A stretch of 40,252 bases of DNA from positions 1-40,252 of the forward strand of contig QNVF01000006.1 of NCBI GenBank assembly GCA_004347965.1. Direction: 5' to 3'. The stretch is from Candidatus Nezhaarchaeota archaeon WYZ-LMO8. GTDB taxonomy: Archaea > Thermoproteota > Methanomethylicia > Nezhaarchaeales > WYZ-LMO8. Both the position numbers and the translations under genes were made by a program. Positions 9,484 to 27,214 of the stretch are shown here, piece after piece. Positions within the stretch are counted from its first letter, which is position 1. Each line of letters begins with the position of its first letter. The notes under the pieces were generated by a model that had not been told where the DNA came from, made no database searches, and saw only the letters and a list, made by a program, of their open reading frames with translations.

Positions 9484-10152
9484 CTAGGTTCTAACGTTGC
9501 TTGACTTACATACATCGTTTAAAGGGCACTTGTGACAATTAGGTCGCCTCGCTTTGCAAACTTCTCTTCCAAACTTTATGAGAGCTAAGTGAAATAGAGC
9601 TCGCTCATTGGGAGAAACGAAGGATTCAAGAATCGCCCTCACGCCCTCATATCCAGCTCCCTCATCAACCAATCCAAGTCTCTTGACTATCCTCTCAATA
9701 TGAGTGTCTATTGGTATCACTGGTGCATTAGCTTTAAAGGCTAGCATGACATCAGCTGTCTTGTAGCCCACAGCTGGAAGTTCCATCAACTTAGATCTTG
9801 CATATTCAAATCGCATTGCTAGAATTTCCTCCAAACTCATGCTCCAGCTCCTAAGTTTTTCAGCTATTTCCTTAATCCTTCGAGCCTTAACCCTGTAAAG
9901 CCCAGCGACCTTCAATGCATCCTCGATTTCTGAGACATCGGCTTTGAGTATGCTGTCAGTCGACAGTAAACCTCTATTCTTCATATTAGCTATGGCCTTC
10001 TCAACATTCTTCCAGTTAGTATTCTGAGATATTATTGTGCTTATCAATAATTCAAAGGGGTTTAGGGACGTGAGCCTTAGTAGTATTGGAGCAATGTCGT
10101 CATAAAAGCATCTAATGATGTTAAGTAACTTGGACTTCAAGTAGGAGGTCAA
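9484..10152 (-). CDS. nth: Endonuclease III (DNA glycosylase/AP lyase)
   Basis: The 222-residue protein excises oxidised pyrimidines and cleaves the abasic strand in base-excision repair. It shows the helix-hairpin-helix LPAVGYKTADVML (about 127-139) with the catalytic Lys, the catalytic Asp in VIPIDTHIERI, and the C-terminal 4Fe-4S loop with spacing C-x6-C-x2-C-x5-C in VCKARRPNCHKCPLNDVC. Length is standard. ATG at 10152 is the natural start. It is divergent from the DUF1922 gene, with 169 bp between them; it is followed by a long empty interval and seems monocistronic. Confidence 0.95.
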   Translation of the reverse strand: MTSYLKSKLLNIIRCFYDDIAPILLRLTSLNPFELLISTIISQNTNWKNVEKAIANMKNRGLLSTDSILKADVSEIEDALKVAGLYRVKARRIKEIAEKLRSWSMSLEEILAMRFEYARSKLMELPAVGYKTADVMLAFKANAPVIPIDTHIERIVKRLGLVDEGAGYEGVRAILESFVSPNERALFHLALIKFGREVCKARRPNCHKCPLNDVCKSSNVRT

Positions 10153-12195: not shown

Positions 12196-12441
12196 ATGGA
12201 CCTGATGTTCCTCATCGGGTTATTGCTGACAGTGATTGGGGCAGTTCTCGTGGTGATTTCATCCATTAAGATGATTAGGATGAGTGGTGGGAAGTATGAA
12301 TCATCAGGAATAATATTGATAGGACCCATACCAATTGTATGGGGTACTTCTAAGAAGCTTATGGCAGTTATGGGAGTTGTGACTGCCATAGCACTACTAA
12401 TCATAGCCTTATTGTGGACTGCAAGCTTAATTGGTGGTTAA
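12196..12441 (+). CDS. DUF131 (TIGR00304) small membrane protein
   Basis: An 81-residue protein with two hydrophobic helices (about residues 4-26 and 52-78) flanking a conserved ESSGIILIGPIPIVWG loop that is the hallmark of the archaeal DUF131 family, function unknown. It precedes and overlaps a second gene carrying the same kind of membrane pair. A TATA-like AACTTATATC near 12096-12105 may serve both genes. Membrane location is clear from the sequence; no catalytic residues are evident. Confidence 0.85.
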   Translation: MDLMFLIGLLLTVIGAVLVVISSIKMIRMSGGKYESSGIILIGPIPIVWGTSKKLMAVMGVVTAIALLIIALLWTASLIGG

Positions 12442-12892
12442 AGTGAGCTATGTCAAGGTAGTTTTTCTAAAAGATGTTGGAGCCTTCGTTGGTAGTGATG
12501 GCAAGATATACGGACCCTACAAATCCGGTGATGAAGCAGTAATACCAGAAGATGATGCTAAGGCTCTAGCACTTAGAGGTGCTGTGGCAAGGATTGGAGG
12601 TTACGTTATCGAGGAGGGTACTAAACCCAGTCCCGCAGCCCTTAAGAGCCTTCCATCAAAGATGGAATTCCCGCTCCTGTTCCCCATCCTAATGTCCATA
12701 GGGTTCATTCTGATAATTGTGGGTCTAATGCTCATGTCGCTTTCAGCGATGAAAGTCTCTGGTATTATAGCTATATTCCCATTTCCTCCGATAGTAATTT
12801 CAGGGCCTGAAGCTATACTGATAGCTATACTACCAATGGCCATAATCTTAACTCTCATCATCTTATTCTTATATCTAATCACGAGGTTTTAA
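12431..12892 (+). CDS. GINS B-domain-like module fused to a DUF131-type membrane pair
   Basis: The 153-residue product joins two parts. Residues 9-55, with FLKDVGAFVGSDGKIYGPY and AVIPEDDAKALALRGAVARI, closely resemble the small B domain of archaeal GINS subunits (phe/gly, YGP, LP..nA..L..rG pattern). Residues 80-152 form two membrane helices around a SGPEAI loop, as in DUF131. A replication function is not implied; the B-like fold may simply bind a partner at the membrane. It overlaps the preceding DUF131 gene by 11 bp if TTG 12431 is used; GTG 12434 or 12443 are alternatives. Its stop overlaps that of the convergent SFM1-like gene. Confidence 0.75.
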   Translation: MVVKVSYVKVVFLKDVGAFVGSDGKIYGPYKSGDEAVIPEDDAKALALRGAVARIGGYVIEEGTKPSPAALKSLPSKMEFPLLFPILMSIGFILIIVGLMLMSLSAMKVSGIIAIFPFPPIVISGPEAILIAILPMAIILTLIILFLYLITRF

Positions 12893-14480: not shown

Positions 14481-14985
14481 TCATGCCACATTTTGTTCCC
14501 CTGCATCGGTCTTGGGTCTGCATCGCCCCTCGGGGGCGTTCAGGGGCACCCCTAGACCTCCACATCTTGCGCATCTTACCAACAGGTTTATACACGCTAT
14601 GATGTTTCTATCGCCTATAAAACCGCATTTGGTGCACCTCAGCACTCTACCACTAGAATCTTTAAGCCTACCTCCGCATCTAGGGCACGTAGATGATGTC
14701 TTCCTCGGATTAACATGCTAACATGTCTAATCTCAAGACCTCTCTAGAGCTTCGTAGCCTACGGTAAACTGAATCCTCCCGTAGAACCACAGAAATAGCT
14801 TCTTGTTGAAAGCACTATTACCGTTAACTCTGCTTCTAAGCTTGTTTAGGTTTTCGAGAACTACGATAGAGCTATATTCATTGGCTAGCTCTGTTACTTT
14901 TTCACTTATCCTGTGAGCGTAGTCCCATGCGATGCTCTTCATTCTTTTACCGTGTCTCTTAACTGCTCTAACGTGATGAGGTCAA
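14481..14985 (-). pseudogene. Decayed TnpB (IS200/IS605 OrfB) remnant
   Basis: The minus strand encodes the C-terminal half of a TnpB RNA-guided nuclease, N-terminal part missing. Upstream piece: IVVLENLNKLRSRV (RuvC-II Glu region) to GYEALE; downstream piece: HVNPRKTSSTCPRCGGRL, LRCTKCGFIGDRNIIACINL (zinc finger and RuvC-III Asp) and a terminal NAPEG motif before the stop at 14481. Between the pieces, stops at about 14716-14741 are explained by one extra base plus an 8-bp tandem duplication of CATGTTAG (net +9, so frame is restored). No TnpA, end sequences or omega-RNA boundary were recognised. It is therefore a fossil insertion. Confidence 0.85.
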
Positions 14986-23880: not shown

Positions 23881-25560
23881 TCAAGTTGCTTCTTTTCTTC
23901 GACCTCTCTGCTCCTCAAAGATCTTACTTAACGTTTGAATGGTGTCAACTTCCAGTGGTGACTTATCGTCCCTAATTCTAATTATCCTTGGGAACCTCAA
24001 TGCCAAGCCGGATTTATAGTGTGGGCTCTTCTGAACTTCGTCAAAGGCTACTTCAACAACTATTTTAGGCTCAACGTAGACTACTCTGCCTTCTTCCTTG
24101 ATAGCTACTTCTTTCAGTCTCTTAGTTATCCAAATGAGCTCCTCGTCAGTTAGACCGGTAAAGCACTTCCCAACAACCTCAAATTCGTTGTTTTCAGGAT
24201 TGTAAGCCGCTAAGTACAAGTCACTTAGCATTGAAGCTCTATATCCATGACCGTACTCAGCTGCTATAACTACAAGATCTAGGGTATTGAAAACTGGCTT
24301 TATCTTTAACCACTTCTTACCTCTAACTCCCGGTGTGTAAGGTGATTCTAAGTCTTTAGCTATGAGGCCTTCGTGACCATCCTTGAGAGCCTTCTCATAG
24401 AAGGTTTGAGCCTCTTCGTACTTGCTCGTAATTAGAGTTTCGATAATCACATCCTCGCTGACTACGCTTCTTAATATCTTCCTCCTCTCAATGTACGGTT
24501 TGTCTATCAACGTCTCACCATTTAAGTAGAGTATATCGAAGAAGTAGAGCTTCAATGGTATTTTGCTTACTAGCTCGCTCACACTTCTCTGTCTTCTAAA
24601 CCTCCTCATTAATAGCTGGAATGGAGCTGGCTTACCATTACTCGTAAGCGCTATTACCTCACCTTCAAAGACAGCGCTCTCAGCTGCAACCCTTTTTACT
24701 ACTTCAACTACCTCAGGTAGGCTTGTGGTCACGTCGGTTGCTCTTCTGCTAAATATCTTCACTTTGTCGTTGAGTTTATGAACTTGTACGCGAGCCCCAT
24801 CAACCTTAATTTCGAATGAAGCTCTTCCTCCCAACTCCCTCAGAGCTGATAGTAAGTCGTTAGCCTTCTCTGCTAGCATTGGCTTAACAGGGTGAAAAAG
24901 AACTATCCTCTGTCTTCTAAGTCCCTCAACTCCTTTAAGTTTAGCTATTCTCGCCGTCAAGCCAAGATCGCTTGTAAGCATATGAGCTCTCCTAACGAGC
25001 TCGTATGGCAAGTTAAAGGCATCAGCGATGGCTTCCTCCATTAATCCCTCGCTAAACCCATGTCTTCTCTCACCTAAAGCGAGCTTCACAAGGTACTTCA
25101 CCTCTACTGGTCTTCTAGCCCTCAATAACAGCCCATGAAAGAGCCTAATCTTCTTACGTCTAGAACCTTCTCCAGAAGCTCTTGCTATTGATTTAAATCC
25201 CTCGTAGACGTCCTTGATTGTTAAGTCGCCCTCAGAAGCCGTAAGCAACGGTATGCATCCTATCTTCTCAGCTATTCTCATGGACGCTAGGCCCAAGTCG
25301 CCGGTCGACTTGAAGACCTTGAAGAACTCACTCTTAGATGACGAGAACACCTTGATAACGCACCCAATAACTCCAGAAGCTCCAAGCCCTATCTCTGGCT
25401 CCCATGGCGGAAATAGTTCACCAATTATGAACCTAACTGCAAGCTCAAGATCGTTCACTTCTAGGTTCTTAATAAAGTTCGATACTAGAGAAATCATGGA
25501 GCTTCTAGAGCTAATAGCTTCGATCTCATCACAGAGTCTACATACATCGACGAAGAGCAT
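23881..25560 (-). CDS. lig: ATP-dependent DNA ligase (archaeal replicative type)
   Basis: From ATG 25560 the product has 559 residues, the usual length of archaeal LigI. It has an N-terminal helical DNA-binding domain, the adenylation domain with motif I EIKVDGARVQVHK (nucleophilic Lys near 250), SRRATDVTTSLPEVV, EGEVIALTSNGKPAPFQLLM, the LKDGHEGLIAKDL and KWLKIKP motifs, and a C-terminal OB fold ending in ALRFPRIIRIRDDK. It seals nicks in Okazaki fragments and repair. The frame extends upstream to 25596, but the added residues are hydrophobic and non-homologous. It lies 100 bp downstream of a primase-like gene on the same strand. Confidence 0.95.
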   Translation of the reverse strand: MLFVDVCRLCDEIEAISSRSSMISLVSNFIKNLEVNDLELAVRFIIGELFPPWEPEIGLGASGVIGCVIKVFSSSKSEFFKVFKSTGDLGLASMRIAEKIGCIPLLTASEGDLTIKDVYEGFKSIARASGEGSRRKKIRLFHGLLLRARRPVEVKYLVKLALGERRHGFSEGLMEEAIADAFNLPYELVRRAHMLTSDLGLTARIAKLKGVEGLRRQRIVLFHPVKPMLAEKANDLLSALRELGGRASFEIKVDGARVQVHKLNDKVKIFSRRATDVTTSLPEVVEVVKRVAAESAVFEGEVIALTSNGKPAPFQLLMRRFRRQRSVSELVSKIPLKLYFFDILYLNGETLIDKPYIERRKILRSVVSEDVIIETLITSKYEEAQTFYEKALKDGHEGLIAKDLESPYTPGVRGKKWLKIKPVFNTLDLVVIAAEYGHGYRASMLSDLYLAAYNPENNEFEVVGKCFTGLTDEELIWITKRLKEVAIKEEGRVVYVEPKIVVEVAFDEVQKSPHYKSGLALRFPRIIRIRDDKSPLEVDTIQTLSKIFEEQRGRRKEAT

Positions 25561-25660
25561 TATTAACGAGCCCCCAACTATGGGCAAGATAAGCATGCAA
25601 TAACATTCTTACAAGTTAAATTGTCCACCGACTTAGAGCATCAACATAGCTACTCATGAA

Positions 25661-27067
25661 TTAATCCTCTCGTCTATCGTTGAACCACTTAAACAGTCCT
25701 CTAGGCTTAAATGTTCTCCTTCTTGAATTTAGAACTACATCCTCAAGGAATCTATCCCTAACAGGTTCATAGACCTCTTTGAAGAACTTCTGCTGGTCTA
25801 AAAGTACTTCCTTCTTAAAGCTCTTCAGGTACTCTAAGGCTGCCTGCCACGCTTTCTCATAAGCAACTACAGTGTTTATGTTCTGCATTATTTGCCTATC
25901 GTAGTCTTCAGGTCTTTGTTCTTGATCTCCTATGATAAACCAGCCTCTATCAGACACGAAAGCCAATTCATCACCTACTTGAATAGCTTTCTCCTCCCTC
26001 ATATCTTCACTCATCCTCTTCACGATCTTCGCCATCTTCTTAGACGATACCTCTTTGGCATGTCTCTTAGCCCATGCGTAAAATATTGCTCTATTCAATC
26101 CAAATGACTTTGCCTTCTCTAAGTCTCCAGTCAATAAGTAGTAGCGGGCTGCTTGAAGTAGTCCCATGACTTGAAATCGCCCAATTCTTCCTTTCCTCTC
26201 GATCTCCGCGACCTTGGGAGCAGCAATGGTGGTCCTAGCTTTCACTTCTATGGTACCAAGCCAGCCCTTATAACCACCTATCACTTCAAGGGCTTTAATG
26301 GCAGCTTCATCGCCCTCACCATCAACAAAGCCTCTCCACTCCTCATCATGCTTAAAGTTCTTAGGATCAGCCCACTCGAGCTCGAAGCTGTCTAGAATGC
26401 TGGGCTTAAAGCATACACAGCATAAATCCCTTCTCCTATGAAGTGCCAAAGGAGCTGTGAATACTCTTTTCAAGTCTATCTCATTTTCCACCTTAAGTCC
26501 GCTAGATCTTGACGCTACATCAAGTATACTGCTCCTACATCTTTCTAAGACGTAGTCCACTAATGAGTACGCAATGTCCAATGGATTATGTTTAAGCAAA
26601 ACATCGCTTGAAAAGCACTTTTCATGTACGTGAACGTGAGCCCCCTCACCACTCCACTTTATGAAGACAGAGTTAATTACTCCCAACTTCTCGAGCTCAT
26701 CAACTATGATTCTAGCTACCTCTATTACGTCTCTCCACCTCTCCAATTCTCCATCTATATCCCATATTGGGGAAGCGTAGGCTATGTTCTCGCGCTTCTC
26801 CAAGTCAAGCTTCGTAGCTAACTTACCATAAACATTCACGGATCCGTAAATGGTTCTGGGCTTAACACCTTTAAACTGCTTAATTAAACTCTCAACATCA
26901 AGTGGCGTATCAATCTTGAGGGGCCTTCCATCCCTCCAATACCTCAAGAAAACTCTGCTACCTAAAGTTCCTCCTTCGAGGGCAACCCACCTGCCTTTGC
27001 AGTAATCGGATATTTCCTTCTTAACCACCTCCTTCGAGTAATGTTGCTCAACGAGCTCGTAGTCCAC
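25661..27067 (-). CDS. Archaeo-eukaryotic primase (AEP) superfamily protein, PriS-like
   Basis: With a GTG start at 27067 this protein has 468 residues, starting with DYELVEQHYSKEVVKK. AEP motifs are present in order: catalytic acidic pair in IWDIDGELE (residues 103-105), SGEGAHVHVH (139-148; sxH motif), and RVFTAPLALHRR (201-212). A CCVCF segment follows. It differs from the canonical small primase in the N-terminal KGRWVALEGG region and the long C-terminal part, so it may be a paralogue or divergent primase-polymerase. The frame extends to 27196, but that adds a hydrophobic stretch and passes a TATA-like AATAATT (27084-27090), suggesting a leaderless GTG start. DNA ligase follows directly. 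Confidence 0.78.
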   Translation of the reverse strand: MDYELVEQHYSKEVVKKEISDYCKGRWVALEGGTLGSRVFLRYWRDGRPLKIDTPLDVESLIKQFKGVKPRTIYGSVNVYGKLATKLDLEKRENIAYASPIWDIDGELERWRDVIEVARIIVDELEKLGVINSVFIKWSGEGAHVHVHEKCFSSDVLLKHNPLDIAYSLVDYVLERCRSSILDVASRSSGLKVENEIDLKRVFTAPLALHRRRDLCCVCFKPSILDSFELEWADPKNFKHDEEWRGFVDGEGDEAAIKALEVIGGYKGWLGTIEVKARTTIAAPKVAEIERKGRIGRFQVMGLLQAARYYLLTGDLEKAKSFGLNRAIFYAWAKRHAKEVSSKKMAKIVKRMSEDMREEKAIQVGDELAFVSDRGWFIIGDQEQRPEDYDRQIMQNINTVVAYEKAWQAALEYLKSFKKEVLLDQQKFFKEVYEPVRDRFLEDVVLNSRRRTFKPRGLFKWFNDRRED

Positions 27068-27214
27068 GAAAACACACCAACAAATTATTAAGCCAAGGAG
27101 TCCAATAAAGTTAAATAGAAATTGAATGACTTCAGCTAATAGCTCGTATGTACTCCTTGATCGCGACGCAAGCTTTATAAAGAGTAAGCATAGCAAGACT
27201 GGCAGGTGCTAAGG

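Follow-up and report, generated by a model that had tools for sequence, protein, structure and literature searches.

The window, a stretch of 40,252 nucleotides, contains at positions 12431–12892 (+) the second gene of a DUF131 tandem pair found across Thermoproteota, and the encoded protein carries a GINS B domain in front of two membrane helices, a new architecture from known parts. We consider it fairly likely that the protein is the B subunit of the pair and that its GINS B head is a cytosolic, membrane-anchored docking domain. Subunits A and B would be paralogous two-helix hairpins, inserted in opposite orientations as an antiparallel heterodimer, with the soluble N-terminal domain of subunit B facing the cytosol. 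There, the head would be a small domain to which a client docks and is thereby brought to the membrane anchor, filling the slot of the zinc finger in relatives. Most relatives either lack this N-terminal domain or have a B-box-like zinc finger there. One Methanomethylicia lineage gained the GINS B head once, after which the two-gene cassette spread.

The GINS B domain

Read from TTG, the open reading frame at 12431–12892 (+) comprised 153 codons. Residues 8–54 matched the Pfam model Gins51_C (PF22090) over profile positions 1–47 of 48 with E = 3.3e-11 and 43.2 bits (cut-off 27 bits). This domain, which is predicted to form the cytosolic head of subunit B, was placed at 12452–12592 (+), with PF22090 scores of 43.2 and 45.3 bits. 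With phmmer, the PDB matches were Gins51 chains only, the best being 5ghr_B (E = 1.4e-4). An hhalign comparison with an alignment of canonical Gins51 (ten proteins from Thermoproteota) scored 99.1% (E = 1.1e-18), with 50% identity over 56 columns. The AlphaFold2 model, for which the window protein and six homologues served as input, had a pLDDT of ~87 in the B region and low confidence in the linker after it. The top PDB matches of the model by Foldseek were likewise Gins51 (3anw_A with E = 1.4e-4, 5ghs_D and 5ghr_D), and 5ghr_D was aligned over 53 columns at 1.1 Å with a TM score of 0.86 on the target. The first-pass annotation, made from the letters alone, had placed a GINS B domain at the N-terminus and named HMM–HMM comparison and structure prediction as checks; both agreed with it, the latter giving the fold of the Gins51 C-terminal domain. 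The module additionally resembled the small domain DUF7210 (residues 700–723 of the solute-binding protein at L112) and, weakly, the C-terminal domain of gpFI (2lsm, Foldseek rank 38), hinting at a wider small-domain superfamily around it.

The protein shares B-domain sequence and predicted fold with archaeal Gins51, in which the B domain is C-terminal. In contrast to Gins51, its B domain is N-terminal and followed by two membrane helices; the helical A domain of GINS was absent from the protein by Pfam and AlphaFold2, and the remainder consisted of linker and the two helices. The gene is also not located beside priS or aIF2-alpha, and a separate canonical Gins51 exists. The latter was found elsewhere in the same genome (C43), upstream of an aIF2-alpha-like gene, and in G039 the orthologous gene is additionally preceded by priS (genes named by their sequence). 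Gins23-type genes were located between rfcS and mcm in the family members G038 and G036. Given these separate canonical Gins51 and Gins23-type genes, the membrane protein is an addition and not the GINS subunit.

Elsewhere in the window, a 511-aa protein (25661–27196, −) had only a weak match to the LigD primase-polymerase (E = 0.03) and adjoined an ATP-dependent DNA ligase (23881–25596, −); the two may form a primase-ligase pair not yet characterised in archaea. The family has its canonical PriS elsewhere. Short open reading frames at ~14481–14942 (−) looked by eye like a decayed TnpB-type transposon protein with a zinc ribbon (CTKCG...CARCG).

The tandem DUF131 pair and its exchangeable heads

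Subunit A (12196–12441, +), a two-helix hairpin with an IGPIPI motif in a basic inter-helix segment, scored above the cut-offs of both PF01998 (DUF131; 38.3 bits, cut-off 22 bits) and TIGR00304 (51.5 bits, cut-off 33 bits). In subunit B, the AlphaFold2 model contained transmembrane helix 1 at model residues 83–108 (12677–12754, +), DUF131-like by hhalign, and transmembrane helix 2 at model residues 126–152 (12806–12886, +). The segment between them (12755–12805, +) had an IFPFPPI motif and no positive cluster and, from its charge and the model, is predicted to lie outside. The helix pair is too divergent for the curated TIGR00304 cut-off of 33 bits, matching that model only weakly (E = 0.013, 15.2 bits), although the hairpin aligned with the DUF131-A profile in a profile–profile comparison (90%, E = 1.6e-6, 38 columns), in line with the DUF131-like helices recognised in the first pass.

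In four genomes (G000, which is the window's own, G039, G030 and G031), the stop codon of the DUF131 gene was followed by one base and then by an in-frame GTG or ATG of the second gene. Since this geometry is kept, the true start of subunit B is probably GTG 12443 (12443–12892, +; 149 aa) and not TTG 12431 of the longest open reading frame. The earlier description of two adjoining genes thus holds, whereas their overlap was dropped in favour of a 1-nt gap.

Approximately 50 loci collected around DUF131 genes yielded 30 tandem pairs. With a simple hydropathy helix caller, subunit A had on average 4.8 Lys and Arg residues between the helices vs 0.9 in the tails, while subunit B had 4.2 in the tails vs 0.9 between the helices. 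This bias was found in 29 of the 30 A subunits and equally in 29 of the 30 B subunits, and in the sole B exception (L119) the helix caller was thrown off by an additional region at the C-terminus. This region (in the B subunit at L119:2494–3015) was soluble and HSP20-like by eye, with no Pfam or NCBIfam match. By the positive-inside rule, the opposite charge bias places both ends of A outside and both ends of B inside, so that the two are predicted to be hairpins of opposite orientation with the B head and the A loop in the cytosol. From these orientations, A and B probably associate as an antiparallel heterodimer. The 12196–12892 pair shares the two-helix hairpin, the adjacent A gene and the opposite charge pattern with the other DUF131/TIGR00304 pairs. 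That the gene is the second subunit of such a general tandem pair, with an exchangeable head, had been missed in the first-pass annotation.

Three states of the subunit B head were observed: no head (L167, L168, L171, L173, L189, L190 and L192), a B-box-like zinc finger (L039–L041, L118, L170, L172, L183, L187, L188 and L193) and the GINS B domain, which in the 12431–12892 protein replaces the zinc finger or the lack of a head of other DUF131 B subunits. The best Pfam scores of the zinc-finger heads were to B-box/HIT-like models, with 28 bits for zf-HIT in L039 and a zf-B_box score just under the cut-off in L172. A zinc-finger type pair was present in G034, which belongs to the same order as the window (L170). 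Each GINS-B genome had at most one PF01998 match, so the GINS-B and zinc-finger versions look like alternatives, and the two heads appear to replace each other. The presence of the GINS B domain in the place of the zinc finger of relatives suggests a fold that serves as a mobile module for docking, beyond its part in replication.

Distribution, transfer and constraint

Full-length GINS-B homologues were found in 7 of the 398 Thermoproteota genomes searched, namely in the window's own family (G000, G039, G038, G037 and G035) and in a single genus from a different order (G030 and G031). The GINS B head on a DUF131 hairpin was confined to these seven Methanomethylicia genomes, and a pattern scan of one genome per species (84,980 species) revealed no lineage beyond Methanomethylicia. 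A related-locus search with the single 12431–12892 protein gave no match, and the same search with an alignment gave four Methanomethylicia-type loci and two other B-domain proteins. A DUF131-A gene lay just upstream of the B gene in six of the seven GINS-B genomes. The two genes were separated by 0–1 nt or overlapped shortly in five genomes and were ~170 bp apart in G035. The only GINS-B gene without an adjacent upstream DUF131-A gene was that of G038 (L037:1–3505), on a contig of only 3.5 kb.

In a tree of the DUF131 hairpins built without the GINS columns, all GINS-B pairs were placed in one clade (100/100). Grouping the G030/G031 pair (g20) with its own family was rejected (p-AU 1.6e-7), and the gene order around the pair differed between the own-family and the G030/G031 groups. 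The hairpin tree and the differing gene order indicate that the head travelled together with the B hairpin and the A gene; by this phylogenetic evidence, the GINS-bearing pair had a single origin and passed from one order to another as a unit of two genes. Between G000 and G039, the B domain had a dN/dS of 0.14 and the helices one of 0.18. In the G000–G037 and G000–G038 comparisons, dN was 0.15–0.20 for the B domain vs 0.41–0.49 for the helices. The GINS B head is the most conserved part of the protein. A promoter and terminator scan gave signals no more frequent than expected by chance.

The same module in other proteins and the role of the head

With the alignment-based search, archaeal peptide-binding proteins of the SBP_bac_5 family with one or two Gins51_C modules were detected (L108, L109, L110, L111, L112, L113, L115, L116, L117 and L121). 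They consisted of a signal-peptide-like N-terminus, the SBP_bac_5 body, the Gins51_C module or modules, a linker that is coiled-coil-like or rich in Thr, and a membrane anchor at the C-terminus, and both Pfam models were above cut-off in all four of the four proteins scanned. If the anchor is read in the usual way, the module must be extracellular in these proteins. As in the 12431–12892 protein, the module is near a membrane anchor, and both types have the DGKxYGPY...IPxxDA core in common; the solute-binding type differs in being extracellular, C-terminal, sometimes in tandem and part of a transport protein. A tree of the B domains (53 columns) did not place the DUF131-type module closer to either the solute-binding type (p-AU 0.31) or Gins51 (p-AU 0.14). 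A precedent is the C-terminal domain of PriS, which has the fold of the GINS B domain (Swiatek and MacNeill 2010, PMC2861644); it lies inside the replication machinery, whereas the reuse described here is on a membrane hairpin. Going by profile matches, the B fold is reused outside replication at least twice beyond PriS; for the 12431–12892 protein, the reuse surmised in the first pass was upheld by PF22090, Foldseek, hhalign and the DUF131 profile–profile matches. Winged-helix-like regions combined with a Gins51_C B domain were observed in a 616-aa protein beside apparent mobile-element genes (L114:6075–7925) and in a 274-aa protein near a HerA-like ATPase (L078:1–825). A literature search on DUF131, TIGR00304 and the occurrence of GINS B domains on membrane or solute-binding proteins returned nothing useful from the collection of papers searched.

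A role in replication was weighed against docking of a different client. The membrane B domain could bind Cdc45/GAN (RecJ-like), GINS or MCM as Gins51 does, and so anchor the fork or unbound GAN to the membrane as a tether or decoy; we regard this as unlikely. The crystal structure described in PMC5484177 has the Gins51 C-terminal domain bound to GAN, as Psf1 binds Cdc45, and this speaks for such a contact, as do the strong conservation of the membrane copy, which keeps the DGKxYGPY core, and three DHH proteins above cut-off in the own genome, which leave room for a GAN-like partner. Genes for repair and replication (RPA-like OB, NucS, EndoIII, RecF-like ATPase and UDG) also recurred beside DUF131 pairs, with 22 cases vs 1 in a control of similar size, a count in which the gene families were picked post hoc and several loci are close kin. 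These loci (L118, L167, L168, L170, L172, L181, L185, L187, L193, L155–L158 and window 9484–10152) are suggestive and serve as a lead only. However, the same conserved core occurs in the extracellular solute-binding proteins, where there is no replisome, and relatives swap the head for a zinc finger or nothing. Moreover, the pair has no replication gene as its neighbour in the GINS-B genomes, the EndoIII gene of the own family being ~2 kb away. The first-pass annotation had considered a replication fold at the membrane unexpected; the domain is indeed present on a membrane hairpin, but this need not mean replication, and with the B module also extracellular in peptide-binding proteins, membrane placement alone does not point to Cdc45/MCM. 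Improbable in our view is also the broader proposal that the antiparallel DUF131 pair ties replication or repair machinery to the membrane, the GINS B domain binding a GAN/Cdc45-like protein or GINS/MCM and the zinc-finger versions doing likewise by another contact.

That the head instead lies outside the cell, like the module of the peptide-binding proteins, with an extracellular ligand to sense or bind, is hardly more than a slim prospect. In SBP_bac_5 proteins, which have a signal peptide, the module lies between the body and the C-terminal anchor, the solute-binding and membrane types share DGK and EDA, and their joint clade was not rejected. Against this, the 12431–12892 protein had no signal peptide, positive residues flank the ends of its helix pair and are nearly missing between the helices, and relatives have a zinc finger at the same place.

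It is very improbable that the membrane copy supplies in trans a function that Nezhaarchaeales Gins51 lost with its B-domain motif. The canonical Gins51 of G000, G039 and G036 kept the A domain and had a very divergent B region without YGP (degenerate-B Gins51 of family f1: L068:20–535, L070:1510–2028 and L063:1519–2052), and the membrane copy was the sole PF22090 match in its own genome. Yet G030 and G031 have an intact Gins51 plus the membrane copy, and in the f2 genomes G032 and G033 the B domain of Gins51 is weakened but there is no membrane copy; loss of the Gins51 B domain as the cause of the membrane copy was rejected on this misfit. Finally, a chance resemblance to GINS or an annotation artefact, which nothing but the short domain length would favour, was ruled out for practical purposes by independent profile, profile–profile and structure scores far over cut-off and by seven conserved homologues with low dN/dS.

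With a membrane-anchored docking head as the preferred reading, the GINS B domain, so far seen as belonging to the replisome, is a mobile module used by archaea in membrane proteins, where it apparently occurs on either side of the membrane. The uncharacterised DUF131 family thereby gains a concrete architecture, in which two genes would encode a pair of hairpins of opposite orientation with an exchangeable head.
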